From the NCBI GenBank assembly GCA_945828585.1, contig CALZRN010000005.1:1-36661 (forward strand): a DNA stretch of 36,661 bases, in the 5' to 3' direction. The position numbers and the translations under genes were made by a program. Below, in pieces: positions 3,539 through 36,139 of the stretch; position 1 is the first letter of the stretch; each line of letters starts with the position of its first letter. This stretch comes from an uncultured Bacteroidales bacterium. GTDB taxonomy: Bacteria; Bacteroidota; Bacteroidia; Bacteroidales; Paludibacteraceae. A model generated the notes under the pieces. It was not told where the DNA came from, made no database searches, and saw only the letters and a list, made by a program, of their open reading frames with translations.

Positions 3539-5506
3539 TCAAAACGGCTCTGCATAGGTACAACCCTCGCGCCATCTGGAGCAGCCGTAACGCGTATTGC
3601 CGCGGATGATCAAGCCCTGTCGGCAAACGGGGCAAAGCATGCCTGCCTTGTTCGTCTTGACATCTTTGACGACTCCGGAAGTCATCTCCTTGAGTTCCGT
3701 CAAGAAATCTTGCGCTTGATATTCGCCTCGCTCTATCTCACGCAGTTTTTTCTCCCATAGACCCGTCAACTCTGCGGACTTAAGCAAGGGAGAGATAATC
3801 GTGTGAATGAGATCGATACCCACTTGAGTAGCACGGAGCGACTTACCTTGCTTTTGGATATACTTGCGTTGATAGAGTTTCTCGATGATGGCTGCGCGGG
3901 TAGATGGACGACCTATACCATTCTCCTTCATCGCCTCACGTAGTTCGTCATTCTCGACCGTTTTGCCGGCCGTCTCCATCGCGCGCAGAAGAGTCGCCTC
4001 CGTGTAATACTTAGGCGGAGTTGTCGTCTTCTCTTTCAAGAACGGCTCATGAGGCCCACTCTCGCCTTTCACAAACGCCGGCAACGACTTGCTTTCCTCC
4101 TGATTGTCGGAGTTCTCGGCTTCATCGGAGGTATCCTTTGTACTTTGTACTTCGTCACTTTGTCCCTTCTCAAACACGGTTCTCCATCCGGGTTTGAGAA
4201 CCTCCCGCCCGGTTACTTTGAAATCAATCTCACCGGCTTTTGCCAGAACAGTCGTGTTGCTAACCTCGCATTCGGGATAGAAAGCCGCAATGAAATGCAA
4301 TGCCACCAGATCATACACCTTCTTCTCATCCGCCGTCATGGCGTCCGGCCGCTGCCCCGTAGGAATGATAGCATGGTGGTCGGTAACTTTCTTGTTATCA
4401 AACACTTTCTTCGATTTGGGTAATGAGCCGGCACTTTTCTTGCCATCGGCTTTGAGCCCCAATAACGGCGCTACCTGCGGGAAATAGTCTTTGATGCCCG
4501 CCAACGTACCCGGTACTTTGGGGTAGATATCATCACTCAGATAAGTCGTATCCACACGGGGATAAGTGGTCAGACGTTTCTCGTAAAGAGACTGAATGAG
4601 CTGAAGCGTCTGCTCTGCGGAAAAGGAATATTTCTTATTACAATCCACCTGCAGCGAAGTTAGATCATACAGTTTCGGGGCAAACTCCGTACCTTTCTTC
4701 TTCTCCACAGAGGTAATCAGGAACGGCTGGTCTTTGATAGCGTCCACAAGTGCCTGTCCCTGCTCCTCGGAAGTGATGGCATATTCGTCCTCTTCCGTCG
4801 GTAATTGGGCACTAAAAAGTGTGTCGCGGTAGTTGGTTTTCAACTCCCAATAGGTGCGCGGCACGAAGTGATCGATCTCCGCCTGCCGTTTTACCACCAG
4901 CGCTAACGTCGGCGTCTGTACACGTCCCACGGAGAGCACCTGCCGGTCTTTTCCACTCCCGCGCGCGTACCTTATAGTATAGGCGCGCGTGGCGTTCATG
5001 CCTAACAACCAATCGCCTATCGCCCGCATCATGCCCGCCTCATATAAGTGCTGGTATTCGGATTGATCTTTCAGTTGGCGGAATCCCTCACGGATAGCCT
5101 CTTCGGTCAGCGAGTTCACCCACAGACGCTTTACCGGACACTTGCATCCGGCCTGCTGATAGACCCATCGTTGGATGAGCTCTCCTTCCTGACCGGCATC
5201 ACCACAGTTAATGACCTCATCGGCACCCGCAATCAGCGACTTGATGACATTAAACTGCTTATGTACCCCTTCGTCACCGGAGACTTTGATAGAAAAACGC
5301 GGAGGAATCATCGGCAAGGAACTAAGGCTCCAAGCCTTCCATTGGTCTGTATATTCCTGCGGATCGAGCAATGCGCATAAGTGACCAAAGGTCCAGGTCA
5401 CCTGGTATCCATTGCCCTCAAAATAGCCGTCCTTGCGCTGCTTGGCACCCAGGACGTTCGCTATATATGCACCCACAGAGGGTTTCTCCGCTACACAGAC
5501 AATCAC
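3539..5506 (-). CDS. topB: DNA topoisomerase III (type IA)
   Basis: This is a 655-residue type IA topoisomerase that relaxes or decatenates DNA through a 5'-phosphotyrosine intermediate. The N-terminal TOPRIM domain starts with VCVAEKPSVG and has the acidic metal motif at about 103-109 (DAGQEGE). The catalytic tyrosine lies in LTTYPRVDT (Tyr about 315). LSVGRVQTPTL (about 191-201) is the conserved toprim-distal motif. An acidic insertion near 455-480 is unlike the core. The C-terminus has a CPVC...C...C zinc-ribbon-like motif. The start codon is GTG (5504-5506), chosen because it gives the family's usual N-terminus. It follows the wzc-like gene across a repeat-filled spacer. No conjugation genes are near, so this looks chromosomal rather than the TopB of an integrative element. 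Confidence 0.95.
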   Translation of the reverse strand: MIVCVAEKPSVGAYIANVLGAKQRKDGYFEGNGYQVTWTFGHLCALLDPQEYTDQWKAWSLSSLPMIPPRFSIKVSGDEGVHKQFNVIKSLIAGADEVINCGDAGQEGELIQRWVYQQAGCKCPVKRLWVNSLTEEAIREGFRQLKDQSEYQHLYEAGMMRAIGDWLLGMNATRAYTIRYARGSGKDRQVLSVGRVQTPTLALVVKRQAEIDHFVPRTYWELKTNYRDTLFSAQLPTEEDEYAITSEEQGQALVDAIKDQPFLITSVEKKKGTEFAPKLYDLTSLQVDCNKKYSFSAEQTLQLIQSLYEKRLTTYPRVDTTYLSDDIYPKVPGTLAGIKDYFPQVAPLLGLKADGKKSAGSLPKSKKVFDNKKVTDHHAIIPTGQRPDAMTADEKKVYDLVALHFIAAFYPECEVSNTTVLAKAGEIDFKVTGREVLKPGWRTVFEKGQSDEVQSTKDTSDEAENSDNQEESKSLPAFVKGESGPHEPFLKEKTTTPPKYYTEATLLRAMETAGKTVENDELREAMKENGIGRPSTRAAIIEKLYQRKYIQKQGKSLRATQVGIDLIHTIISPLLKSAELTGLWEKKLREIERGEYQAQDFLTELKEMTSGVVKDVKTNKAGMLCPVCRQGLIIRGNTRYGCSRWREGCTYAEPF

Positions 5507-5536
5507 GTGATTTACAATTTAGTCATTTACCATTTA
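5504..5536 (-). repeat. Junction array of TAAATnn units between wzc-like gene and topB
   Basis: Read on the minus strand, the spacer starts at the wzc-like stop codon and runs to the topB start as degenerate 7-8 nt units of the form GTAAATG/CTAAATT. TAA occurs at offsets 1, 8, 16 and 23 and TGA at 12, so all three frames are closed. There is no room for a promoter. It is one of several junctions of this kind in the window. Confidence 0.6.
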
Positions 5537-7819
5537 CGATTTCTGCACTCCGTAACCATACCCGTAACCGGCACGAAGACCCTTCACGCCGTTGAGCACG
5601 CAGGTGACATTATGCATCCTATTCTGGGCGATGACATTATTGATATACTCGATCATCTCCGACGGCGTGTATTTATAACGGCATACAAAGATGGTTATAT
5701 CTGCGATGCGATCCAAGAGATAGGTATCGCTCACCAAAGCCACCGGCGCCGTATCCACGAGAATATAGTCGTACCGCTTACGCAACTCCGCGAAGAGCCC
5801 ATCGACACGCTCGGTCTGCAGTAACTCTGCCGGGTTGGGAGGTATCGTTCCGCAAGGGATGATATCTAAATTCGGATGCTCGCCGCTCGGTACAACGATA
5901 TCGTCTATCGCAACATCCGGATCCGCCAGATAATCCGTCAGATGACCTTTATTGCTCAGCCCGAAATAAGCAGCTAACATCGGTTTGCGGATATCCAATC
6001 CTACCAACGCCACTTTCTTTCCCAAGATAGCCAACGACAAGGCTGTATTACTTGCCACATACGATTTTCCATCTCCGTTGATACATGAGGTCACCAAAAT
6101 GACCGGAGATTTCACATCGGCAGGAATCACATAGCGTAAGTTCGTTCGGATCAGGCGGAACAACTCAGCCGAAACCGTTGACTCGCCTTCATGGATTGCA
6201 ATATGCGCATTCCTGGAGTTTTGTACCAACTGCCCCAACAGAGGTGCATGAATTCGCTTCTCAAACTCCTTCGGATCGTCGATCTTGTCATTGATAAGGA
6301 CGTAAAGATATAGGATTCCTGCGGGTATCAACAACCCCAAAAAGATACATATCAGCATCAGTTTGATAAGCTTCGGAGACTGACTCTTAACATCGCGTTG
6401 CGGGACATCCAGCACTTTCGCCGGCATCGTCGTCGCAGCCAACATCAGGGCATTCTCTTCACGTTTCTCATACAGAAAGACATACAAACGCTCTCGTAAT
6501 TGTTGCTGGCGTACAACGCGTACATACTCACGCTGCTGCTCCGGGGCATCTTTGATTTTACGGGTGTATTTCGAGTCCTGCGACAGAAGATTGCGCTGGC
6601 GGATCTTCAAGCTCTCGCGCACCGACCCTATCGTAGCGATGATGTTTTGACGCATGATAGCGAGTTGCGCATTCATCTGCTCAATAACGGGGTTGTCATC
6701 CGTGGCGGTACGAAGAATACGCATGCGTTGCAGCAGCAAAGCGTTGTATTCCGACAGGCCGCTCGACAGCGATGCATCCGTCACACCGATATTCGAAGGA
6801 ATGAGGCTATTACGTTTGGTTTCGTCCCGCAAGAATTCATCGATATACTCCACCAGACTCAGCTGAGTCTCTATCTCCGCCATTGCGCGTTGCTCCGCAC
6901 TGCTGGCCGAGAGAAATAGTTGCGCTTGGGCCTGGATATCAGCGATGTTATTGCTCTCTTTATAGTCCGAAACAGCATTCTCGGCGTCGGCCAGCTCCTT
7001 TGTGATGATAGCCAACCGCTCCTCGATAAAATTCGCCGTGTTCGTCGCAATCATATTTTTGTCCACCACGGCATTCAGGTTATATTGCTCGATCAGCTGA
7101 TTCAGCAAGGCCTTATCGCGTTCGGGCATGGGGGACTTTATCGACATCTTGATGATGTTCGATTCCTTCTTGTATTGCGAAATAGATAGCATCTCGCCAT
7201 AACCGGCCACTACCAACTCGCGGCGACTGTGAAAAACACGATACGTCGTATCTTGACTCAACGCGCGGTTGGCATGGATCTGTATCGTTCCGATTCCCGT
7301 CTCTATTGGCGCATTCAAACTCTCCACACGGGTTGTCGAACGATGGAAGAAACCGTTTTTGGTTTTTATCTTATACCCTTTTGAGGTGGGTTTTACGATA
7401 ATGGAGAAGGGGGTTTTCTCTGCCCTTTCCGTCAAAGATATATAGTCCACAGAAAAAGCCGGATTCCGAAACTCGCCTTCCCATCTCAGCGAACCTTTTT
7501 TCGCATGTGCATCCCAGAGATCAAGGGCATCAATAGCCTGATACAACAGGCCTCTCGAAGCCAACACCACCACCTCGTCTTCGGCTGCCTGATTGCCGGT
7601 CAAACCCAACATTGACAAAGATGCCATCTCTTCGCCAAAGCCGTCTTTTTGACGCAACATGATGGCGGCATCGGTCGTCCACTTAGGGCTCTTTCGCAAA
7701 TAATAGCAGACACCCAAGAGTACAAAACACGCTACTCCTATCGCAAACCACCACCAGTGCTCCAGCACAATGCGCATCACTTTGCGCAAATCTATCTCGT
7801 TATTTTGATTTGTTTCCAT
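5534..7819 (-). CDS. Wzc-like polysaccharide co-polymerase / tyrosine autokinase
   Basis: This 761-residue inner-membrane protein of the Wzz/Wzc type controls chain length and export of capsule or exopolysaccharide. It has a transmembrane helix at about 24-41, a long periplasmic coiled-coil region, and a second helix near 495-515. The cytoplasmic BY-kinase domain shows Walker A (INGDGKS, about 580-586), Walker A' (LVGLDIRKP, about 605-613) and Walker B (ILVDTAP, about 686-692). The C-terminal tail has a short tyrosine cluster (GYGYGYG, about 751-757), the usual autophosphorylation target. It lies 6 nt after the Wza-like gene, so the two are surely co-transcribed. No glycosyltransferases or flippase are in the window, so the polymer is unknown. 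Confidence 0.93.
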   Translation of the reverse strand: METNQNNEIDLRKVMRIVLEHWWWFAIGVACFVLLGVCYYLRKSPKWTTDAAIMLRQKDGFGEEMASLSMLGLTGNQAAEDEVVVLASRGLLYQAIDALDLWDAHAKKGSLRWEGEFRNPAFSVDYISLTERAEKTPFSIIVKPTSKGYKIKTKNGFFHRSTTRVESLNAPIETGIGTIQIHANRALSQDTTYRVFHSRRELVVAGYGEMLSISQYKKESNIIKMSIKSPMPERDKALLNQLIEQYNLNAVVDKNMIATNTANFIEERLAIITKELADAENAVSDYKESNNIADIQAQAQLFLSASSAEQRAMAEIETQLSLVEYIDEFLRDETKRNSLIPSNIGVTDASLSSGLSEYNALLLQRMRILRTATDDNPVIEQMNAQLAIMRQNIIATIGSVRESLKIRQRNLLSQDSKYTRKIKDAPEQQREYVRVVRQQQLRERLYVFLYEKREENALMLAATTMPAKVLDVPQRDVKSQSPKLIKLMLICIFLGLLIPAGILYLYVLINDKIDDPKEFEKRIHAPLLGQLVQNSRNAHIAIHEGESTVSAELFRLIRTNLRYVIPADVKSPVILVTSCINGDGKSYVASNTALSLAILGKKVALVGLDIRKPMLAAYFGLSNKGHLTDYLADPDVAIDDIVVPSGEHPNLDIIPCGTIPPNPAELLQTERVDGLFAELRKRYDYILVDTAPVALVSDTYLLDRIADITIFVCRYKYTPSEMIEYINNVIAQNRMHNVTCVLNGVKGLRAGYGYGYGVQKS

Positions 7820-15876: not shown

Positions 15877-17517
15877 ATGAGCAAACCCATTATTTACCAA
15901 CTCTTCCCGCGCCTTTTGGGCAACTACAACGAGACGCGCAAACATAACGGCACCAAGGAAGAGAATGGCTGCGGGCGATTTGTAGATATCAACGAGCGTG
16001 CGCTCAAGTCCATCGCGGACTTGGGTGCCACGCATGTTTGGTACACCGGAGTCATCCGACACGCCACAGCCCAATACAACAACCCGGCTATCACCAAAGG
16101 CAAAGCCGGTTCGCCTTATGCCATCACCGACTACTACGATGTCGATCCCGACTTGGCAAAGAACGAAGCCAAGCGTATGCAGGAGTTCGAAGCCCTTGTC
16201 AAACGCACCCACAACGCCGGACTCGGTGTCATCATCGACTTTGTGCCCAACCACGTCAGCCGCGAGTATAAATCTCTCTGCAAACCTGCTGGCGTAGAGG
16301 ATCTCGGAGAGAAAGACCATCCCGAATGGGCCTTCTCGCCGCTCAATAACTTCTACTACCTGCCGGGTGAACGATTCACGATGGACAAGGACCTCCAGGG
16401 CTATGAAGAGTTCCCCGCCAAGGTCACCGGCAATGATTGTTTCACTTCGCATCCCTCCCTCAACGACTGGTACGAGACCGTCAAACTGAACTACGGCGTC
16501 TTCTATCAGGGCGGGCGGGAGAAGCAGTTCGACCCCATCCCCTCTACTTGGGTCAAGATGCGCGACATCTTGCTCTTCTGGGCGGACAAAGGAATCGACG
16601 GCGTGCGGGTAGATATGGCGGAGATGGTGCCTGTTGAGTTCTTCGCGTGGGCGATTGCAGCCGTGCGGAAGAGACATAAGAAATTCCTTTTTATCGGCGA
16701 GTGTTACGACCCGAACCAATACGACGCATACCTCGCGGCGGGATTCGACTACCTGTACGACAAAGTGGGCATGTACGACTACCTCCGAGGAGTCATCAGT
16801 AAGGGTTGGCCCGCAGAAGGCATCACCGCCAAATGGATGCAGCACGGCGACGAACGACTCAAGCACATGCTCTATTTCCTTGAGAACCACGACGAGCAGC
16901 GACTCGCCAGCGGCTTCTTCAGCGGAGACGGACGGTGCGCCGAACCGGCAATGATTGTGGCGGCTACCCTCAATCAATGTCCCGTCATGATCTACTCCGG
17001 CCAGGAGTTAGGCGAACGGGGGATGGAGATGGAGGGATTCTCCGGCATCGACGGCAGAACCACCATCTTCGATTATTGGGGCGTCAAATCCATCCAGGCT
17101 TGGGCGAACAAAGGTAAGTTCGACGGCGCTAAACTCTCGCCGGAACAAAAAGAACTGCGCGAGTTTTATCAGAAACTCCTAACCCTCACGCGTGATGACA
17201 AAGCGATCCAGAAAGGCCGCATGTACGACATCACCTATGCGCAGGGGGACGGTTTCAATAAACGCCAGCACTTCTCTTTCATCCGGCATATCAAAGGAGA
17301 GACACTCCTTGTGGTCGTCAATTTCCACGACCGCGAGCAGCAGATCCACCTCCGCTTGCCAAACGACGCCTTCGTCTATCTCGAGATGGATGGCAAAGCC
17401 AAAGCGACCGCCACAGATCTTCTGCGTGGAGGCAAACAGCCGATTGATTTTGCCCCGGATGCCTTCTTCGACATCGCGCTGCCTGCTTGGACCGGGGTGG
17501 TCTTAAAAATCAAGTAA
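15877..17517 (+). CDS. GH13-family alpha-amylase, cytoplasmic
   Basis: This is a 546-residue glycoside hydrolase of the alpha-amylase family with no signal peptide, so it should act on internal glycogen or imported malto-oligosaccharides. The catalytic TIM-barrel motifs are present: region I DFVPNH (121-126), region II GVRVDMAE with nucleophile Asp246, region III FIGEC with acid/base Glu275, and region IV ENHDEQR with Asp339. The C-terminal all-beta domain (about 440-546) ends in ...WTGVVLKIK. Its place between ackA and a prenyltransferase in one operon suggests coupling of glucan breakdown to acetate formation. The exact bond specificity cannot be told from motifs. Confidence 0.92.
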   Translation: MSKPIIYQLFPRLLGNYNETRKHNGTKEENGCGRFVDINERALKSIADLGATHVWYTGVIRHATAQYNNPAITKGKAGSPYAITDYYDVDPDLAKNEAKRMQEFEALVKRTHNAGLGVIIDFVPNHVSREYKSLCKPAGVEDLGEKDHPEWAFSPLNNFYYLPGERFTMDKDLQGYEEFPAKVTGNDCFTSHPSLNDWYETVKLNYGVFYQGGREKQFDPIPSTWVKMRDILLFWADKGIDGVRVDMAEMVPVEFFAWAIAAVRKRHKKFLFIGECYDPNQYDAYLAAGFDYLYDKVGMYDYLRGVISKGWPAEGITAKWMQHGDERLKHMLYFLENHDEQRLASGFFSGDGRCAEPAMIVAATLNQCPVMIYSGQELGERGMEMEGFSGIDGRTTIFDYWGVKSIQAWANKGKFDGAKLSPEQKELREFYQKLLTLTRDDKAIQKGRMYDITYAQGDGFNKRQHFSFIRHIKGETLLVVVNFHDREQQIHLRLPNDAFVYLEMDGKAKATATDLLRGGKQPIDFAPDAFFDIALPAWTGVVLKIK

Positions 17518-17547
17518 ACTGAATACTGATAACTGAATGCTGAATAC
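17515..17547 (+). repeat. Junction array of CTGAATA units between GH13 and ubiA-like genes
   Basis: From the GH13 stop codon, the spacer and the first codons of the next gene read as degenerate CTGAATAC/CTGATAA units of 6-8 nt. TAA or TGA occurs at offsets 1, 6, 13, 16 and 20, closing all three frames. The ATG of the prenyltransferase (17537) lies inside the array. Confidence 0.55.
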
Positions 17548-24400: not shown

Positions 24401-24910
24401 ATGAAAAGTTTCGTTTATTCGGATTCTACGATAGCTTTTGTGACTGCGGCGGCGCAGACCTGCCTGCTCATTGAGCAGACCGCGGACCACGATCGCGAGG
24501 AATGGCGGGAGCAGATGTTACGTCTTCTTCCGGTGCTCTATCTGAGGACACGTTTGCTCGAACCGGCTCAGACGGTCATGGAGGACGAGCCGCAGCGCTT
24601 TGTCGCCGAGGAGGATTATAACTTCGCCTTGGTCGGCGTCCGCAACCTCTTGGGGCAGGACGATGCCTACCTCGATGTCTTTGTCGATCAGGGCATCTAC
24701 ACCGACGAGATCCAGACCTCCTACATCTCTGAGGGGCTCGCGGATATCTATCAAGAGTTGAAAGACATGGCGGCAGCGTTCCAGACTGGCGAGGAACCGG
24801 TCATGAACGACGCAGTGGTTCTCTGCCGGGAGGCCTTTAATACGCATTGGGGACGAAAACTACTCTCCGTAATGAGAGCTTTGCATGAGATATCAGACAC
24901 ATCATATTAA
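24401..24910 (+). CDS. DUF5063-like conserved protein
   Basis: This 169-residue, mainly alpha-helical, acidic and probably cytoplasmic protein has no signal peptide. Its sequence (LLPVLYLRTRLLE near 42-54, EEDYNFALVGVRNLLG, SEGLADIYQELKDM, FNTHWGRKLLSVMRALHE near the end) fits the uncharacterised DUF5063 family of Bacteroidetes. Those proteins commonly precede a 3'-5' exonuclease gene, as here. It overlaps that gene by 26 nt, which implies translational coupling and perhaps a shared process in RNA or DNA metabolism. The biochemical role is unknown. Confidence 0.75.
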   Translation: MKSFVYSDSTIAFVTAAAQTCLLIEQTADHDREEWREQMLRLLPVLYLRTRLLEPAQTVMEDEPQRFVAEEDYNFALVGVRNLLGQDDAYLDVFVDQGIYTDEIQTSYISEGLADIYQELKDMAAAFQTGEEPVMNDAVVLCREAFNTHWGRKLLSVMRALHEISDTSY

Positions 24911-25706
24911 CTCCGACCTGCTCCAATGGATGCCGGTGGTGGCATTCGACGGCGAAGTGATTGTGGTGGACCGCGTGGAGCAGGTTCCCGAAGCTGTGGC
25001 ATACCTCTCGGCCCAACCGGTAGTAGGCGTGGATACGGAGTCACGGCCTTCTTTCACACGAGGCATCCATTATCCCACAGCGCTCGTCCAGATAGCCTCT
25101 CATGAGCGGTGCTACCTCTTCCGCCTGACTCATGTCGGCATGCCGCAGGAGCTCGCGGATTTCTTTGCCAACCCCGCGGTCTGCAAAGTCGGACTCGCTT
25201 TCCGCGATGACATCAACGGCCTCCGCCGCAGGCGGAACTTCACCCCTGCCAACTGCGTGGACATCCAGCACATGGTGCCCCAGTACGGCATACTCGACCT
25301 CGGACTCCAGAAGATCTACGCCATCTGTTTCGGCAAGAAGATCTCCAAGAGCCAGCAGCTGACCAACTGGGAGAACACCCACCTCACCCCCGAGCAGGCG
25401 CGCTACGCCTCTACGGACGCATGGGCGACACTCCTTATTTATGAGGATCTGCTCGCGCACGAGCAACTCGCCCCCGACGAGGTCATCGCCCTCAAACGCG
25501 AAGAGAAAGAGCGCCAGATTGAGCACCAGCAACAGATCCAGGACCAGCGCCTCCGCGAGCAGGGCATCGAGCCCCCGCCCCATCTGACCCTCGAGGAGCG
25601 CGAGGAACGACAAGCCGCCAAAAGACGCGAAGCACGCAGACGCAAACGCCATCGCAAAACTGCTAATAAAAAGAATTCATCATCCCGTAATCCCGTAATC
25701 CCGTAA
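24885..25706 (+). CDS. DEDDy-type 3'-5' exonuclease (RNase D-like)
   Basis: This 273-residue nuclease has a DnaQ/RNase D-like fold that removes nucleotides from 3' ends using two metal ions. The exo motifs are VGVDTES (Asp50, Glu52), GLAFRDDINGL (Asp108 or 109) and RYASTDAWATLL (Tyr174, Asp178), giving DEDDy. There is no HRDC domain. The last 75 or so residues are a highly charged Arg/Lys/Glu/Gln tail, probably for nucleic acid binding. The final residues NPVIP and the stop are encoded by a triple 8-nt repeat, so the natural C-terminus may have been altered by repeat growth. Confidence 0.88.
   Translation: MRYQTHHINSDLLQWMPVVAFDGEVIVVDRVEQVPEAVAYLSAQPVVGVDTESRPSFTRGIHYPTALVQIASHERCYLFRLTHVGMPQELADFFANPAVCKVGLAFRDDINGLRRRRNFTPANCVDIQHMVPQYGILDLGLQKIYAICFGKKISKSQQLTNWENTHLTPEQARYASTDAWATLLIYEDLLAHEQLAPDEVIALKREEKERQIEHQQQIQDQRLREQGIEPPPHLTLEEREERQAAKRREARRRKRHRKTANKKNSSSRNPVIP
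25682..25706 (+). repeat. ATCCCGTA x3 at the exonuclease stop codon
   Basis: Three perfect tandem copies of ATCCCGTA (25682-25705) plus A. Each unit junction makes TAA (25688, 25696, 25704). With an 8-nt period, the three stops fall in the three frames, and the last is the one used. Confidence 0.75.
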
Positions 25707-25734
25707 GTACGTCATTACGCAAAAAAAATATCCT

Positions 25735-27561: not shown

Positions 27562-27588
27562 AATAATTATTGTTTGCGTTGATTATTT

Positions 27589-27633
27589 CTAGTTGACTAG
27601 TAGACTAGTAGACTAGTTTTCTAGTTGACTATC
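27589..27633. repeat. CTAGTNGA array, downstream side of the four-helix-bundle gene
   Basis: The units are CTAGTTGA, CTAGTAGA, CTAGTAGA, CTAGTTTT, CTAGTTGA and CTATC, in exact 8-nt register. The CTATC end overlaps the stop codon of the four-helix-bundle gene (27632-27634). On the minus strand each unit gives TAG, and three successive units cover all frames. Confidence 0.85.
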
Positions 27634-28192
27634 AAAACCCTCTCTTATTCTTCCGAGCGGAAAACATCCGCTCTTTCACGCCGCCCTCGGCTAAGAACTC
27701 CGCCTCTATCTTCTGCAATAATGTCATCAGTCCTTTGTCTGCCTGATGAATCAGCGTCAGAGCTGTATTACAAAAAGTCTCTTTATCCCACTTCTCATAG
27801 TAGGGTGCGTAGTCTTCCACTTCGTTATGCGCCGCGCAGAACTGTAGCATCTTGCCAAATCGTTCGTGGTCGCGCGACCATAATTTCAGGCGGTTGGAGC
27901 GCAACTGGTCTTCGTAGTCTTCGCGCAACTCTTGCAGACTTCCGCGAGCTACATTAACCAAATGCAATCCTGTATCAGTAGATGTCATCTTGTCCTCTAA
28001 ACCCTCAACGATATTCTGCTTGCCGGATCGCGCCGCTTGCTGCATTTGACCGTACGTCCTGTCCGAAGGCTGGAGGTACTTGTCTATATAGTAAATCGTC
28101 ATATCGTATAGAATAACGCTCTTCTTATAGCAGACCAAGTTGCGATACCCTCCCGGATGAATCAGAAACCCGCCAGGGTTTAAAGTAGTCAT
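27632..28192 (-). CDS. Four-helix-bundle suffix-domain protein
   Basis: This 186-residue cytoplasmic protein fits the Bacteroidetes four-helix-bundle suffix family, related to the S23/23S-intervening-sequence proteins. The features are LIHPGGYRNLVCYKKSVILYD (about 10-30), AARSGKQNIVEG (about 53-64, the family hallmark) and VARGSLQELREDYEDQLR (about 81-98). The C-terminal half is helical and aromatic-rich. The function of the family is unknown. Relatives include Avd, an accessory protein of diversity-generating retroelements, but no reverse transcriptase is present here. It is unusual that the gene is bracketed on both sides by arrays of the same 8-nt unit. Confidence 0.85.
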   Translation of the reverse strand: MTTLNPGGFLIHPGGYRNLVCYKKSVILYDMTIYYIDKYLQPSDRTYGQMQQAARSGKQNIVEGLEDKMTSTDTGLHLVNVARGSLQELREDYEDQLRSNRLKLWSRDHERFGKMLQFCAAHNEVEDYAPYYEKWDKETFCNTALTLIHQADKGLMTLLQKIEAEFLAEGGVKERMFSARKNKRGF

Positions 28193-28207
28193 CTTCGTCG
28201 TGATTTT

Positions 28208-28303
28208 GTAGTTTTCTAATTTACTAGTCTTCTAGTTGACTAGTCTACTAGCTGACTATCTTTCAAGTTTTCTAGTAGACTAGTTGACTAGCAGACTATC
28301 TTA
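28208..28303. repeat. CTAGTNGA array, upstream side of the four-helix-bundle gene
   Basis: Twelve 8-nt units run without a single indel from 28208 to 28303: GTAGTTTT, CTAATTTA, CTAGTCTT, CTAGTTGA, CTAGTCTA, CTAGCTGA, CTATCTTT, CAAGTTTT, CTAGTAGA, CTAGTTGA, CTAGCAGA and CTATCTTA. The last unit contains the stop codon of the giant gene (28301-28303). A larger unit, TTTT-CTAG...-CTATCTT, occurs twice. Confidence 0.9.
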
Positions 28304-31300
28304 TTTTACCAACTTTCCGGTTACATCATACATCTGCTCAGCGCGGAGGATGTAAACGTGCTCATTGAGGATAACCTTCTGAACGCCAGTCTCATTAGCC
28401 TCTGCATTTTCCACACCGGTGGTTACTTGCGGAGCCTTCTTGACGAGTAACAGGCCATAGCCTTCGTTGTTACCCTTCGCGAAGTCGCTGGTGTATTCGC
28501 CCATCGACAAGTTCCAGATGATTGCGCCGTTCAGCGTCAGGTAGAGATTTGCGTTGTCCATTGCCGGAGCGCTGATCGTGTACTCGCCAGCCTGCGGAGC
28601 GTAGAGCGTCAAGCTATACTCAGCCTGGTCGTTCACCATCGGAGCGTTAACCATACAGAGCTTCATGCCATAAGCTTTTCCGCTGATACGTGCTACCTTC
28701 GGCATCTGGCTCATAAACATCTTCACAAGGTCTTTGTCTTGCTCATACTCATTGAGAGCATCTTCGCTTGCAGAGATATAGAGTTTGTCTTTGGATACTT
28801 CGTTACCGAAGCGTACTGCGACATTCTTTATCTCATAAGCCTTGTTACGAGCTGGAGCATAGATCGTTCCTACTTCGTCCATCGCAACAACACTTGGTGT
28901 ACTTGCTTTGTAGAAGAACGGCAGACCTACAGGAATCGTCATACCCGGAGTAATAGTCACGTACTCATAGGTGTACGGATCCAGATATTGAGCATTGTAA
29001 GCAAACGTACCGCCAATCCATCTCGGGTTACCGAAACCGTTCCAACCCTTGTCGGAATCTTCACCGGTGCCATCATATGCTTTAGCACTCATACTGTTAG
29101 TCTCACTCATTGCGCCGGTTACAGAAGCTTTGAAGCGGAAGGTCTTCGTGTTACCGTCAACCGTCATCAGGTAGAATACACCCGGTTGCAGGATGCCGCG
29201 ATACTTCTTCCAGCCGTATTGACCGTTAGCACGGATGTCACCATGATAATCCATGATTGCATAGTTCACTTCGTTCTGCAGTTTAGCACCTGTCTCAGCA
29301 TCATAGATACCATTGAGAGCGTCCACTGCGAACGGCAGTGAGAATGCGTGCCATTGGTTCGGATCTGCTGGAACACCTGCCATACTGGTACCTAAGGTCA
29401 AGTCATAGATGATCTCTCCGCCGGTAGCCAGAGTGATGTTGGTTACTTCGTCCAACTCGGTAGCTACACCATGGAAGTCACCATTGTTGTCCGTTACACC
29501 CATCGTCGTGGAGAAGTAAACCGTCGGAGTGGTAGTTGCTGCATGAGCAACAATCTTACTACCATCCTCAACTACTACGCTCTCAGCCGTTGTAGGTTGG
29601 TTAACCTCTACAGTAGCACCGTTTTGAGCAGTAATGCTCTGTGCATTAGTCGGCTCGTCAATCGTCAGTGTTATGCCTTCACCGCTTGCAATAATCGCCT
29701 CACCTTCAGTATAACCGAGGTCAGAGATGTTAATAGTTTCAGTTACCACTACTGCCTTACCGAACAGTTGGATATCCTTTTGAGTACCACCGTATGGTTT
29801 GAAGCGCGGGCTACCGCTATTGTACTGGATTCTCTTAGAACTACTGTTAGTAATATGAACATTATTGCCGCTGAAGCTAATCGTCCAAACTGTAGCATTA
29901 GTTTTCGTATCCCACTTCAGGTCATCATTAGAGTTACCGGTAGAAGTCAAGTAGTTTGCACCATCCTTCGTGATCTTCCAGCCGTTCTCAACTTGCTCAA
30001 GGGTCATTATTAGTACATCCTCCGTGTACGTAGCTACACCATCGCTCAAGCTTACACCATTAGTAATCGAAGCCATATACTTGTTGCTGCCGAGGTCACC
30101 TGCCATTGCGAAGGAGTTCTCTCCATAGCTGCAGCCCAGAGCAATTTGCATTCCGTTAGAGAGTGCGCTTGCGCTGGTTACCATCGACATCTTGTTAACA
30201 GGTACGCTTGCCTTTCTCCATTGAGCAACGAACTCAACGGCTTCTGCCGGCATCGTGAACGAAGCACCTGACTTAAACAGCTTGCTGCCGTACTTCCAGC
30301 CTTGGAAGGTATAACCTTCTCTTGCAATAGCTGCAGCAATCGTGAATTGGTCGCCTGCGTACTGTGCAACCTCTGTCGGAGCGTCAGCCGTACTACCGTT
30401 CATATTATAGGTCACAGCATACGTTGAAGCATTTGTCCATTGAGCGGTCAGCGTAATGTCTTCTTCTACCTCACCAATATTTTGATTTGCTTGGTAAATT
30501 GTGGTAGTCTCATTCAGTTTCCATCCTGCAAACTCGCTATGCGACTTCGTCGGAACATTCTCGCAGATGGTGAACTCACTACCCTTATTGATGATAGCAT
30601 TCTGGCAACCGCCTTCACCACCGTTAGCATCGAACGTGATCGTCACCTTCTCTACCGGCGAAGAGGTGTAGTAGGTCTTGCTGGCATCAAATTCTACATC
30701 AATATTGGTTATGATTGCATTACCACCTTTCGGTACGATATAACCTGCCGTTACAGTCTCGCCGGAGAGATCAAGCGTCTGAGAAGCAGCAGCTGTACCG
30801 GATACAATGTATGCGATATTACCGGAACCGCTATAGTCCGAAGCACTCAAGCCTACAGACTTTGTCGTAGAAGTTGTAATAGCGATGCTGAAGATCTTAC
30901 CCGGACAGTTCGGAATCTTAATAGAGGCATCCTTGTCGGTGTTAATCTGCATACCTTTATTCTTGTATGCTTTAACAATCCATTCGCTACCATCCGTAGC
31001 TGTTACATTAACTGCATTCCCGTAACTTAAGTCCTTATCAGCCACATCAGCCGTGTAGTTCAATACATAGTGATTTGTTTCACCCTCTCCTTCTACTCGG
31101 CTATAGATACCATAGAGACTAACCTCTGCGACACCTGTTTGCGGAGTATATTCCGTAATAGTCGTCGGAGCAACTTCCGTCTCTTCTGCTTGCTCAGTAG
31201 TAGCCCAACCTACGAAGGTGAAGCCTGTCGGAGCCCAAGCAGAACCATCTTGTACGATAGTGAACGCTACATCTTGCTCTTTGTCGATAGATGCTTTCTC

Positions 31301-34300
31301 AACGCCTCCTACCATAAACGAGATCTTAGTTGTAGCAATCTCAACCCATGTTGCTGTAATCGTCACAGCCGCAGCCGGCATTGTGATATATTTGCCATTT
31401 GCATCTTCTGCAATCTCAACTGCATCACCGGAAACTGTCTTCGTTACAGCCCAACCGTTGAAACCATGATTGGCCCAGCTATAGGTATTCTCCGGCAGAT
31501 AAACCTTTGATTCTGCCAACTGAGGATCAATAGCTTGAGGAGCCGATCCTTCGGTTGCACCTCCATTTGCAAACGTTACAGAATAACGTGCACGCTCAGC
31601 GATAACATTTACGGTAAACGTTGTGGTCTTCGCGCTATAGTTGATCGAACCACTATTGTTCGTTGCTGCCAAATTCGCTGTGACAGTAGCCTCACCTGCG
31701 CCAGCAGCATGGAGTTTACCCTCAGCAATCGTCACAACTTCTGTATTACTAGATTCGGTCAGTGTAACAACACCATCACCATCCTTTGTGACGCTAAGGT
31801 CAGCAACAGCGATATCTTCTGTTACATTAACCTCCATCTCAGCCACATTAGCAATCGTAAATTGCGGCGCACGGAGTTGATAAACAACCGTCGAGCTCTT
31901 CAACTCCGGAGTTGCGCTGTTGTAATACTGAATCTTACCCTTGACTATTACATCATCGCTTGCTTTCACATTGCCTTTTGCAGACTCACTTGAAGAGAAA
32001 TACTTACCTTGCCAAATCGTAAACTGATTTGTGCTTTTTCCATCTGCAGAGATATAGTAGGTTCCGCTATTATTTGCATCAGCAACTACAATACCTTTCA
32101 CATAGACATCGTAACTCGACTCGTTCGTACTCTTATAAGCATTAACGATAATGTCGTTGATCTCTGCAGCCGTGTAAGCTGTAGCCTGATCGTTAGCAAT
32201 ATCCTTAACAACTACCTTATAAGTAGCACTCTTACCCTTGTATGTTACTGTGATAGTATTTTCACCTGCCTTAGAGTTATCATATGCTGTAGCATCATCA
32301 AACGAAGCCAACTCTGTTACTGGCTCTTCAGGGATATCCTCTACATATGTAGCCGTTACAACCGGTTTAGTTGGTAATGCGTGACCAACATAAGTTATTA
32401 CGCTTTCGTACGACAAACTGATAGAAGCAACCGTCTTGCTGGTATATGTCACAGCAACTACAGTAGCATCACTCGTCTTTCCGCCATACGCTGCCGTTAC
32501 GTTCACATTTCCGGCTGCTGTTACGATATTCTCAGACAGATTTGTACTCCAAACACCATCTTCATTTGTTACATCCTTAACGTAACCTGTATTGTAGGTT
32601 GCAGTAGCCGTCAAGCCTGCGAACGAGAATATATTATCCTCCGATGAGTAAATGGTCTTAGTCGCTTCACCGCCAATAGCGACGCTACTTACACTTGCAA
32701 CGACCAGCGATGTCAGATAACTATTATCCATATCGTAACTGCCTTGGTAGTTATTCAACTTACCAAATACGCGAACCTTATCACCAATCTTCAAATCGGT
32801 CACATCATTAAAGGCAGCATTGTCGAGACCCTTTCCGCTATAGATACGAACCTTAGCACCACCTTCAGCAGAACCATTGTCGGAAATAAAATAGGTCATT
32901 TTACCTTCATTTACTGACGTTCCGGCTGTACAAACAATACCATCGATATACGTATCGGCGCGTTCGTCGTTGTATTTCGGAATAAGAGCAATAGCCTCAG
33001 CAACCGTAAACGGCAGGCTGATGTTATATGTAGCCTCAGCAACGTCCGAAGCCTCTTTTCCTTCTTCTACTGCATAAGCCTTGACAGTGTAAGTACCGCG
33101 CTCTTTGAGTTCGATTGCTGCCGAATAAGTTTGCTTGGTGCCTGAAGTCTTAGGATCAGAACCATCTAATGTATAATAGATTGTTGCACCATCTTCAGCT
33201 AACATCTCAACAGTCTTAGTTGCATCGAATATTCCACCGTCAGTTAAAACGGGAGTAGTTGCTTTCTGCAAACAAGTTGTTGAGTAATTGCCATAAACAG
33301 GATCAGAAACGGTTTTCTTATAGAAAGCAAGTGTCTGACCACTAATATTGTTACTAATAGATGCATAGCAACGGAAATCCAGTTTATCGGCATAAACTCC
33401 TAAATAACGACCTGTCGTTTGGATATTATATAAGTAACTCTTGTCAATTTTAAAGTTCTTATTGTCTCCAGTACCAACGCGCACGCCATCATTGGCAGTT
33501 GTACAATACAGCCACTTATTTGTTACACCCTTAGGATAGAGCACAAAATTTTCTCCATCCTTAACGATATCCCAAAGAATACTGTCTGCCGGAGAAGCGA
33601 TTTCATCGTTTTCGTCTGTTACTTCTACAGCAGCAGGACCTGCACTTGTGCCTTTATTATTGGACATTGCCCAAGTTGTGGTTTCTGCAGCGACTGTTTT
33701 AGATTCAGTAACGATTACAACGCTTCCACTTTCGATTTCACCCAAAGCAGTCTTTACATAACTCGTAACACCTGCGCTAACTACACTTGCATAAACTGCA
33801 TAGATATGATTCTCACCCTTATTCGGCAGAACGTAAGTAGCGCCCAACTCAGGAGCCGTATTACAATTCTCGTCAGTACTCCAACCCATAAACTCCTTAC
33901 TGCAAGAAGCAGCAGATGTCGGCAGAGTTACTTCTTCTTTCCAATAGTGTGTATTCTCGCTATCGAACGTACTTTCTCCATTCGCATCGTGCAGTTTTAG
34001 TACTGCTACCTCATGGGTGTACGTTACTTCTACCATCACCTCATTATCAGGCATCGTGAACGAACAAGTCGTCTTGTCTTGCGAAACCGAATAGTCTGCA
34101 CCAACTACCGTCCATTCGCTGATCGAATAACCATCATTCGGAGTAGCGGTCAGTACTACTGCTACATCTTTCAATACGTCAGCAATATCAATTACTTCAT
34201 CATCCGAGGTAGCTACCACCGTACCATTTGCACTGGTGATACCAATTTCGTGTCCGCTCGGAGCAGTAACGGTAACTGCACAAGTAGCAGTAACAGTACC

Positions 34301-35932
34301 GGTAACAACCGAAGTAGCGGTAATAGTTGCGGTTCCTTCACCCATTGCTAGTACCGCACCGTCCTCATCTACCATCACTACACCCTGATCGTCAGAATAC
34401 CAAGTAACACCGTTATATGCATCAGCCGGTTCAACTGCCGTTACGCTCAAAGCATCTTCTGCTTCAACCAACAACTCCAACTCTGTCTTATTCAGTGTCA
34501 AGCCTGTTACAGGAATATACTCAAAGGTTGCTGCAATAGCAACATCAGAAGACGGCATCGTAAACGAATATACACCTTGTACAGGAGTAATAGCCTGTCC
34601 GCCTTGCGTTACCGATGCGATTTGATAGTACGTACTTGCTGTCGGAGTAATAGTTACCGTCGCACCTTCTTCAACTTGATCGCCCGAACTAATATCCGAT
34701 CCGCCTACACTAACAGCAACCGAACCTCCCGTCGGAGCACCATTAAATGTTACAGAGTGCTTCGGCAACGCTTTTTTGTAAAGAGTTAATGCCCCGCCGA
34801 TACTACTCGCATAGCAAGCAAAACCAAAAGTTCCATTGTTGCGTAACCATTTTTTGTCACGATCTGACGTAGCAGCGGCACGACCTTTATTCTCAAAATC
34901 GTATGTTGAGCTTCCACTTGCAGTCCAAAGAGCAAAATCTGCAGTTCCTGCATCAAGTAAAGCACCTTGACTCTTTGAAGATGTACCAGCCGCATATTTC
35001 TTAACAGCTGCATTATAAATCGTCCAGTAATCACCGCTTGCAGCAATATGCCAGATAATTGCCTCGTCAGGATTAGTAAGTTTGGCATTTTCAGGGCTTA
35101 CCTCTAAATAGTCAAAGCGACTAGTAGTAATAGTATTTTTCAGTGCTTTACCGCTATAGTAGATTACATAATCACCTTCCACCAAATCACCGGAGAATAA
35201 TGCAAATGTTCCCGTCGGCTCCGAAACTTTCACAGCAGCAAAGCCGGAAGTTGCCGAACCATTATCATCCGTTACAACACAATAGTAATATGTCGTACCG
35301 GCACTTGTCGTCAAAGGGGTGTAGCTAGCATCTGTTCCTACGATCGATGCTCCTTCTGTACTCTTCGTCGTATTGCTATACCACTGATAATGCAAATCAC
35401 CAGCAGATGCCGTTGCTTCTACTGTCAATGCTGTAGCCGATTCTCCAACCACATAATTTGCATCTACTGGGTCTGTAGAAATGGTCGGATTTGCGGGACC
35501 ACCCGGTACTTCTTCCAACCAAACATTAAGTTGACCACTAGAATAGGATCCAAAATTTGCTGTATTAGTTTGGGAATTACATTTCAAACAATAGTTGTTA
35601 ATTTTTAATTGAAGCAAATTAGATGAGTTTGTTATAGCCCAATTAGCTGCGCTTGCAACTACATCGACTTTGCCATTTGCTTTAGAACTTGCTAAGGAAA
35701 GATAGTTTCCACTTTCGAACTGAATACTCCAATTGTCGCCAGATTTTGTAAAAGTAAACACTTCCGCATCTGTTTTGTTTGTTACGGCAGAACCCTGCTT
35801 GCCAGTTGCGGCGGAAGCCCCATGATCAGCTACCGACAAATAATAATCAGTGCTATTGGATTTTGTAGCACCAATGTAATACTTCTTTCCACTTTGAATG
35901 TTTGAGACCGAAGTAATTTTGGCTCCCCACAT
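28301..35932 (-). CDS. Giant secreted multidomain protein with type IX-like C-terminal tail
   Basis: This 2543-residue mosaic is probably a cell-surface or secreted protein. Trefoil-like modules ending in LTLYKK/LAFYKK/IQLFGK occur near 10-140, 245-387, 725-873 and 1915-2058. There is an Ig-like region (148-236) and a Big_2-like domain (474-556). InlB/Listeria-type repeats with FxGW and a final QW or similar lie at about 640-715, 1450-1530, 1537-1612, 1762-1832 and 1838-1905. A chitobiase C-terminal-like domain is at 893-971. OB-fold-like modules are at 975-1080 and 1250-1353. The C-terminal end (about 2505-2543, VQKVILNEHVYILRAEQMYD...) resembles a type IX secretion sorting tail. No catalytic domain is seen. 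The open frame starts at MWGA, but the signal peptide lies just upstream in another frame. Confidence 0.85.
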   Translation of the reverse strand: MWGAKITSVSNIQSGKKYYIGATKSNSTDYYLSVADHGASAATGKQGSAVTNKTDAEVFTFTKSGDNWSIQFESGNYLSLASSKANGKVDVVASAANWAITNSSNLLQLKINNYCLKCNSQTNTANFGSYSSGQLNVWLEEVPGGPANPTISTDPVDANYVVGESATALTVEATASAGDLHYQWYSNTTKSTEGASIVGTDASYTPLTTSAGTTYYYCVVTDDNGSATSGFAAVKVSEPTGTFALFSGDLVEGDYVIYYSGKALKNTITTSRFDYLEVSPENAKLTNPDEAIIWHIAASGDYWTIYNAAVKKYAAGTSSKSQGALLDAGTADFALWTASGSSTYDFENKGRAAATSDRDKKWLRNNGTFGFACYASSIGGALTLYKKALPKHSVTFNGAPTGGSVAVSVGGSDISSGDQVEEGATVTITPTASTYYQIASVTQGGQAITPVQGVYSFTMPSSDVAIAATFEYIPVTGLTLNKTELELLVEAEDALSVTAVEPADAYNGVTWYSDDQGVVMVDEDGAVLAMGEGTATITATSVVTGTVTATCAVTVTAPSGHEIGITSANGTVVATSDDEVIDIADVLKDVAVVLTATPNDGYSISEWTVVGADYSVSQDKTTCSFTMPDNEVMVEVTYTHEVAVLKLHDANGESTFDSENTHYWKEEVTLPTSAASCSKEFMGWSTDENCNTAPELGATYVLPNKGENHIYAVYASVVSAGVTSYVKTALGEIESGSVVIVTESKTVAAETTTWAMSNNKGTSAGPAAVEVTDENDEIASPADSILWDIVKDGENFVLYPKGVTNKWLYCTTANDGVRVGTGDNKNFKIDKSYLYNIQTTGRYLGVYADKLDFRCYASISNNISGQTLAFYKKTVSDPVYGNYSTTCLQKATTPVLTDGGIFDATKTVEMLAEDGATIYYTLDGSDPKTSGTKQTYSAAIELKERGTYTVKAYAVEEGKEASDVAEATYNISLPFTVAEAIALIPKYNDERADTYIDGIVCTAGTSVNEGKMTYFISDNGSAEGGAKVRIYSGKGLDNAAFNDVTDLKIGDKVRVFGKLNNYQGSYDMDNSYLTSLVVASVSSVAIGGEATKTIYSSEDNIFSFAGLTATATYNTGYVKDVTNEDGVWSTNLSENIVTAAGNVNVTAAYGGKTSDATVVAVTYTSKTVASISLSYESVITYVGHALPTKPVVTATYVEDIPEEPVTELASFDDATAYDNSKAGENTITVTYKGKSATYKVVVKDIANDQATAYTAAEINDIIVNAYKSTNESSYDVYVKGIVVADANNSGTYYISADGKSTNQFTIWQGKYFSSSESAKGNVKASDDVIVKGKIQYYNSATPELKSSTVVYQLRAPQFTIANVAEMEVNVTEDIAVADLSVTKDGDGVVTLTESSNTEVVTIAEGKLHAAGAGEATVTANLAATNNSGSINYSAKTTTFTVNVIAERARYSVTFANGGATEGSAPQAIDPQLAESKVYLPENTYSWANHGFNGWAVTKTVSGDAVEIAEDANGKYITMPAAAVTITATWVEIATTKISFMVGGVEKASIDKEQDVAFTIVQDGSAWAPTGFTFVGWATTEQAEETEVAPTTITEYTPQTGVAEVSLYGIYSRVEGEGETNHYVLNYTADVADKDLSYGNAVNVTATDGSEWIVKAYKNKGMQINTDKDASIKIPNCPGKIFSIAITTSTTKSVGLSASDYSGSGNIAYIVSGTAAASQTLDLSGETVTAGYIVPKGGNAIITNIDVEFDASKTYYTSSPVEKVTITFDANGGEGGCQNAIINKGSEFTICENVPTKSHSEFAGWKLNETTTIYQANQNIGEVEEDITLTAQWTNASTYAVTYNMNGSTADAPTEVAQYAGDQFTIAAAIAREGYTFQGWKYGSKLFKSGASFTMPAEAVEFVAQWRKASVPVNKMSMVTSASALSNGMQIALGCSYGENSFAMAGDLGSNKYMASITNGVSLSDGVATYTEDVLIMTLEQVENGWKITKDGANYLTSTGNSNDDLKWDTKTNATVWTISFSGNNVHITNSSSKRIQYNSGSPRFKPYGGTQKDIQLFGKAVVVTETINISDLGYTEGEAIIASGEGITLTIDEPTNAQSITAQNGATVEVNQPTTAESVVVEDGSKIVAHAATTTPTVYFSTTMGVTDNNGDFHGVATELDEVTNITLATGGEIIYDLTLGTSMAGVPADPNQWHAFSLPFAVDALNGIYDAETGAKLQNEVNYAIMDYHGDIRANGQYGWKKYRGILQPGVFYLMTVDGNTKTFRFKASVTGAMSETNSMSAKAYDGTGEDSDKGWNGFGNPRWIGGTFAYNAQYLDPYTYEYVTITPGMTIPVGLPFFYKASTPSVVAMDEVGTIYAPARNKAYEIKNVAVRFGNEVSKDKLYISASEDALNEYEQDKDLVKMFMSQMPKVARISGKAYGMKLCMVNAPMVNDQAEYSLTLYAPQAGEYTISAPAMDNANLYLTLNGAIIWNLSMGEYTSDFAKGNNEGYGLLLVKKAPQVTTGVENAEANETGVQKVILNEHVYILRAEQMYDVTGKLVK

Positions 35933-35988: not shown

Positions 35989-36139
35989 AATGTTAATGAA
36001 TTGAATTGTTTGTATATAAATTTTATTGTTTAACTAAAATAAATGATTTATGAAACACTTATTAACTTTTTTGAGGCATGACGTTAGTGCGACGTTGGCT
36101 TTGACCGTCGGTTGACCGTCGTTCGACCGTCGGGGGACT
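35989..36139. promoter_or_regulatory. Divergent intergenic region with an 11-bp phased repeat
   Basis: The left part is AT-rich and likely holds both promoters, but no exact TAnnTTTG box was found. The right part (36079-36134) carries five GAC(G/C)(T/G)T hexamers beginning at 36080, 36091, 36103, 36114 and 36125, spaced 11, 12, 11 and 11 bp. The last three are GACCGTCG. All lie on one face of the helix, ending 6 nt before the ATG of the plus-strand gene. Confidence 0.7.

Follow-up and report, generated by a model that had tools for sequence, protein, structure and literature searches.

Why do short tandem arrays of unlike sequence recur at the stop codons between neighbouring genes of one bacterial chromosome? 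The question is raised by a stretch of 36,661 nt from an uncultured Bacteroidales bacterium of the family Paludibacteraceae (GenBank assembly GCA_945828585.1, contig CALZRN010000005.1), hereafter the window. Intergenic heptamer repeats, among them the STRR of cyanobacteria, have been described several times, and regulation, G-quadruplexes and slippage have been proposed for them, none of which is settled. The first-pass annotation of the window, made from the letters alone, had read the arrays either as a device that closes all three frames against readthrough or as the trace of a repeat-making process acting at stop codons. We found stop codons to be secondary in this. The arrays go together with a gene family, IVP (23S rRNA intervening-sequence protein), that this annotation had not seen, and many junction arrays look like arms or leftovers of a small, barely studied element carrying a four-helix-bundle gene.

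All five arrays named by the annotation were recovered where it had placed them, beyond the level of dinucleotide shuffles (0, 1, 10, 0 and 0 per 1,000 in the order of Table 1, the array at 17515 being the weakest), and each closes all three frames on the sense strand. The window contains one full long-type element and three solo arrays. The array at 17515 reaches from the stop codon of an alpha-amylase gene into the first codons of a UbiA-type gene, and the upstream arm of the element sits behind the stop of the gene at 28301-35932. The ATCCCGTA triple is found at two further sites of the genome (G000:C2:35390-35413 and C56:4189-4212, loci L001 and L005), in L005 immediately after another stop codon. 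A separate 11-nt unit, TTGACCGTCGG / CCGACGGTCAA, whose period lies outside the 7-8 class, occurs in three tandem copies at 36101-36133 of the window and at L020:11601-11633.

Table 1. Arrays and IVP element of the window, with the number of dinucleotide shuffles (1,000 each) that reach the score of the array
Feature	Position	Strand	Shuffles	Remarks
Solo array, ATCCCGTA x3.1	25682-25706	+	0/1000	Period-8 self-match to 25719; encodes the C-terminal RNPVIP and the stop codon of exonuclease gene 24885-25706; copies four and five (span 25682..25719) degenerate
Solo array, TAAATnn	5504-5542	-	1/1000	Score 9.5; starts from the stop codon of gene 5534-7819 (minus)
Solo array, CTGAATA/TAACTGA type	17515-17545	+	10/1000	Score 8.5
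CTAGTNGA array, downstream arm of the IVP element	27586-27631	-	0/1000	
CTAGTNGA-type array (read with the gene, TAGTCAAC), upstream IVP arm	28209-28298	-	0/1000	
IVP gene, predicted four-helix-bundle protein with suffix domain, 186 aa	27632-28192	-		TIGR04258, 58.7 bits (cut-off 40)
Full long-type (CTAG) element	27586-28298			

We then scanned 792,363 of the 1,834,372 bases of this genome (43%) for arrays with a self-match score of at least 10, a conservative cut because the arrays at 5504 and 17515 fall under it; genes were predicted with a home-made caller, so that junction counts are approximate. Arrays were detected at 105 of 473 co-directional junctions, compared with 3.5 by shuffling, at 6 of 37 convergent junctions (shuffle 0.15) and at 3 of 33 divergent ones (shuffle 1.0), and in 4 of 260 coding segments of equal length taken as a control (first half of the sample). 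Intergenic short-period arrays are real and common in this genome. Periods of 7 (n=43) and 8 (n=40) account for 83 of the 105 co-directional arrays, periods of 9 to 12 also occurring, and 56 of the 105 have their 5' end between -10 and +6 nt relative to the upstream stop codon, where uniform placement gives 23.7. No unit common to all arrays of this genome was found, and the first-pass proposals of one plan carried by differing sequences and of a repeat-making process acting at stop codons are both supported, the process being one that would make arrays there repeatedly. These arrays fit the class of intergenic heptamer-type tandem repeats, being dispersed and mainly in co-directional spacers.

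Closure of all three frames, which the annotation had claimed for the arrays it named, holds for a part of the arrays genome-wide: 58 of the 105 co-directional arrays close all frames in sense, compared with 24.0 in shuffles, and the property does not extend to all. Closure in antisense was observed for 45 of the same 105, and the excess of sense over antisense is weak (26 versus 13 discordant arrays, p = 0.05). Closure is largely arithmetic: by its third copy, any unit with a stop codon and a period indivisible by 3 has put a stop in each frame; none of the 8 arrays with period 9 or 12 closes all frames. The downstream arms of IVP elements (described below) close in sense in 27 of 103 cases and in antisense in 50 of 103. 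The idea of a general design against readthrough finds no support in view of orthologous junctions of close relatives that have no array, the arrays of period 9 and 12 that never close, and downstream arms that are mostly open in sense. A wider regulatory role, with the arrays as binding sites, quadruplexes, or translation-coupling or frame-closing signals under selection, would be consistent with the sense closure above shuffles and with the placement near stops and starts and the transcription of the repeats described in excerpts of PMC4679880 and PMC4692102, but we consider it improbable given that units differ or are missing between species at one and the same junction, that the arrays of this genome have no unit in common and that periods 9 and 12 leave frames open.

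What the annotation had overlooked is that the two CTAGTNGA arrays frame a single gene, in the same (direct) orientation. In addition to the profile match listed in Table 1, this IVP gene scored 23.1 bits against TIGR02436, just under the cut-off of 24, and 24.5 bits against PF05635 (cut-off 33.8); its sisters in L029 and L030 score above the TIGR02436 cut-off. A structure model of the protein (mean pLDDT 79.8) matched 2gsc (Xcc0516) at rank 1 (prob 1.00, TM by target 0.79, E 0.018) and 2rld (BT_0352, S23 family) with prob 0.99, all matches having E values of at least 0.001. As modelled, the window protein has a four-helix-bundle fold like that of Xcc0516. Four-helix-bundle IVP genes are common and structurally characterised, with no known function. 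Profile searches gave no match of the IVP gene to a transposase family, and no match to the IVP protein L069 was detected among 50,697 phage records. The window gene is flanked by protein-coding genes and so lies outside 23S and 16S rRNA; none of three 23S rRNA motifs was present in the IVP loci. The genome has five IVP genes, all five framed by arrays and each with a unit of its own.

This arrangement extends to other genomes. In a set drawn from the genus and family, we used 62 of 63 IVP loci (one was dropped for a short flank), of which 46 lay above the 95% shuffle level; comparison of the upstream flank with the reverse complement of the downstream flank gave a median score of 20, against 10 for cross-locus pairs. 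According to their record titles, the 80 named public loci that we examined next span about a dozen phyla, and many of them are MAGs; of their 95 IVP ORFs we kept 91, discarding four whose flanks measured less than 100 nt, and 7 of the 91 are shorter than 90 aa. An array was present in either flank of 70 of the 91 IVP genes, compared with 98 of 595 control genes (16.5%) from the same 80 loci, and in both flanks of 42.9% compared with 2.2%; at the cut used, 21 of the 91 had no array. Upstream and downstream arms are typically reverse complements of each other, and an inverted match between the flanks was found for 50.5% of the IVP genes and 2.9% of the controls. The arms also have a fixed polarity in 138 of 168 cases (p = 9e-18), G-rich 5' of the gene (61/79) and C-rich 3' of it (77/89), and the predicted pairing of arms is stronger within a locus (median -46.4 kcal/mol) than between arms of different loci (-33.5 kcal/mol). 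Both neighbours are read in the direction of the IVP gene in 61 of 69 cases, compared with 397 of 621 controls; where the neighbours are like-stranded, the IVP gene shares their direction in 61 of 62.

On cyanobacterial plasmids (12 examined of 30 matching plasmid records), all 12 IVP genes are accompanied by an array on one side or both, as in Nostoc edaphicum pNe_5, where AGTAGGG units stand before the IVP gene and CCCTACT units after it. Two of these 12 genes are antisense to both neighbours, so that sense insertion is a tendency and no rule. In L361, L365 and L370, from cyanobacterial plasmids as well, the IVP gene is located between cas genes, cas6-cas4 in Pseudanabaena and Anabaena 90 and cas10/cmr2-cmr3 in PCC 7003, with an array in at least one flank. 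IVP genes have been counted in cas loci (18 in PMC3936711, excerpt) and named as partners of cas loci (PMC10910872, figure legend); those of the three plasmid loci look like insertions and no cas genes, and the partners counted in the excerpts may likewise be passengers.

We think it probable that the arrays are part of a family of small intervening elements built as a short-period array, an IVP gene and a matching array. A close known case is that of the intervening sequences of 23S rRNA, which carry the S23p/IVP family, have complementary borders and are excised by RNase III in Coxiella (PMC4990558, excerpt). The likeness to those of Leptospira and Coxiella extends to the protein family, the patchy distribution and the status of presumed parasite (same excerpt). 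Unlike them, the elements described here lie outside rRNA, at operon junctions, and are bordered by tandem arrays; complementary borders are a property of the short type, whereas the arms of the long type, including those of the window, are mainly direct. The short type in mRNA spacers has the same plan as the 23S rRNA intervening sequences and is for this reason taken as an IVS-like element at operon junctions. We infer that such elements were inserted there and that many solo arrays are their remains. The element would be gained at operon junctions, where an insert that begins at the stop codon would spare both genes. Its arms could pair in the transcript into a long hairpin whose loop holds the IVP gene, the arrangement of 23S rRNA intervening sequences, and RNase III could then excise the hairpin or separate the cistrons. 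Loss of the gene and of one arm would leave solo arrays, seen as three-frame-stop junctions, whose units would change by slippage, and arrays would recur as elements recur. Pairing in the cell, processing, binding and movement of the elements are all putative.

The two types differ in protein and in arms. In the short type, the protein measures about 120 aa and the arms, of period 7, are mostly inverted. The long type, to which the window gene belongs, has the suffix domain, mainly direct arms, often CTAG/CCTA cores and periods of 8-10; an array was found in 20 of 26 long-type loci and in both flanks of 14 of 26. With direct arms no hairpin closes by simple inversion, and the units of the long-type element of the window are partly palindromic. 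Direct arms would also fit the insertion of a gene into a standing array. Similar long-type proteins go with similar arrays (rho 0.46, 0 of 999 permutations in a Mantel test), a correlation partly confounded by common context: five pairs were excluded as orthologous, and L031, L334, L337, L341 and L359, which have common context, stayed in. L031, from the window, and L334, from another species of the genus, had been considered as one element with unrelated outer flanks, a candidate dropped as evidence of mobility after full alignment because their settings proved to be alike, downstream of a gene that ends ..YILR.E.MYD.TG.LVK and upstream of a small MKK peptide.

We compared IVP-bearing with IVP-free genomes after leaving out the junctions that adjoin IVP genes as well as G065, in whose stretches no genes were called. 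In the 7 genomes that bear IVP genes, arrays were present at 149 of 697 co-directional junctions, and in the 11 IVP-free ones at 28 of 428 (p = 0.005; p = 0.015 within the genus alone). A strict dependence of arrays on IVP is nevertheless ruled out by four genomes, three with arrays and no detected IVP gene (G019, 13 of 49 junctions; G048, 6 of 38; G067, 5 of 45) and one, G061, with 8 IVP genes and arrays at only 1 of 38 junctions; neither the short nor the long type was detected in G019 (L278-L281). Lost or unassembled IVP genes, or another source of arrays, would explain the mismatched genomes. The solo arrays of the window's genome match the arms of its own five IVP genes only slightly better than others (12.0 versus 11.0, p = 0.02), a weak case for copies of these arms that counts against the preferred reading. 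Within the public loci, the match between solo arrays and arms was stronger, 0.32 versus 0.23 (p = 5e-6, base composition uncontrolled).

These comparisons bear on the reverse order of events, in which arrays arise first, by slippage on short repeats in stop-start spacers, where alone sequence is free to vary, and mobile or passenger IVP genes settle in them. This order would fit the direct arms of the long type, the arrays of some IVP-free genomes and the sheer number of solo arrays (105 junctions in the 43% of the genome scanned, where the whole genome has 5 IVP genes), and anchoring at the stop could likewise reflect the need to spare both genes. We nonetheless find it doubtful: insertion into a single array would not yield the inverted arms and fixed polarity of the short type, and coding and divergent regions are poor in arrays, as are most IVP-free relatives despite having the same kind of spacer.

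To follow one junction through many species, we turned to the kdgK-eda spacer, matched in 55 genomes, and examined the best 30 of them, labelling states by eye (L207 has no full kdgK match). Of these best 30, 6 contain full IVP elements, 1 a gene-less pair of arms, 12 solo arrays that differ in unit, 4 a bare spacer and 7 other inserts, the bare spacers measuring 12-16 nt; both empty and filled states are present, and among the elements compared no recent jump was caught. The pair of arms in L217 has a predicted hairpin of -53.7 kcal/mol (z -7.4). Over 53 positions, the solo array of L198 agrees with the 3' arm of the L193 element at 51, including 12 in codons of eda, and in a tree of kdgK and eda the two are close together, with IVP-bearing species scattered; no other observation here speaks as strongly for solo arrays as possible leftovers of an element. 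Where the window has the 25682 array, two species with a 97% and a 96% identical exonuclease show nothing but an overlap of 4 nt. With its nearest relatives bare, the array probably arose within this lineage, rewriting the last residues of the exonuclease. The orthologous junction of L239 has a different array. The 17515 junction has orthologues too. No IVP gene was found at this junction itself among the relatives examined, one adjoining the exonuclease gene in L245.

Gene-bearing elements flanked by short repeats have counterparts in the REP/RAYT and MITE systems, where short non-coding repeats are spread by, or left from, a gene located between two of them. The elements described here share with these the gene between repeats and the occurrence of paired arms without gene (L217), but their gene encodes a predicted four-helix bundle and their arms are arrays without fixed sequence. 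A different kinship leads to diversity-generating retroelements, whose Avd is a related four-helix-bundle protein (PMC10053308, excerpt). We think it very unlikely that IVP elements are non-autonomous retroelements relying, like Avd, on a reverse transcriptase acting in trans. Their sense orientation within transcribed spacers would be consistent with this, as would the kinship with Avd, the score of L069 against the Avd model being 29.3 bits for a cut-off of 80; however, no RVT_1 match was obtained in this genome, unlike in diversity-generating retroelements, and RVT_1 is found in 14 of 61 genomes of the genus compared with 48 of 61 for IVP, which argues against a retroelement with its own enzyme.

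The preferred reading, that of an intervening-element family, also touches the published heptamer repeats, which include the TAACTGA repeats of Beggiatoaceae, cyanobacteria and Bacteroidetes (PMC4679880, excerpt) and the GGGAATC / GGGGAYT repeats of Xanthomonas and Nostoc (PMC4692102, excerpt). As far as the two excerpts go, these resemble the arrays described here in their period of 7, their location in co-directional spacers near stops and starts and their scarcity between divergent genes, and differ in that the present genome has many units and also periods of 8-12. MacGregor had already pointed out that stops within the repeat unit restrict overlap with genes (excerpt). In the part of PMC4692102 covered, G-rich sense repeats lie behind stops and antisense ones before starts, a placement that matches the two arms of the element, and inverted repeat pairs are given for Xanthomonas (70 and 75 cases). 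The parts of PMC4679880 and PMC4692102 covered contain no mention of IVP, and in full-text searches of the open PMC library no paper turned up that joins IVP or four-helix-bundle genes with heptamer or tandem repeats. We regard as evenly poised the wider proposal that IVP genes together with short-period arrays constitute a single class of intervening element, present in about a dozen phyla and mostly in sense at operon junctions, with an IVP protein that would help to copy or recognise the arms; the intergenic heptamer repeats of cyanobacteria, Beggiatoaceae, Xanthomonas and Bacteroidota would then be its arms or footprints, and the IVP genes associated with cas and other operons would be insertions and no working parts. 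Joining the two gives both the heptamer repeats and the IVP genes a testable origin.

Two minor observations concern individual loci. The long-type IVP-like genes of L347 and L352 overlap their neighbours by 4 nt, have no arrays and may have been taken into other operons; the protein downstream of the former is, judging from its N-terminus, presumably a type I restriction specificity subunit. In L338, the frame upstream of the IVP gene ends in a repetitive tail rich in S, R and K (..SRNSRDPRKSRESRKSRDSRK..), as if an array were translated.
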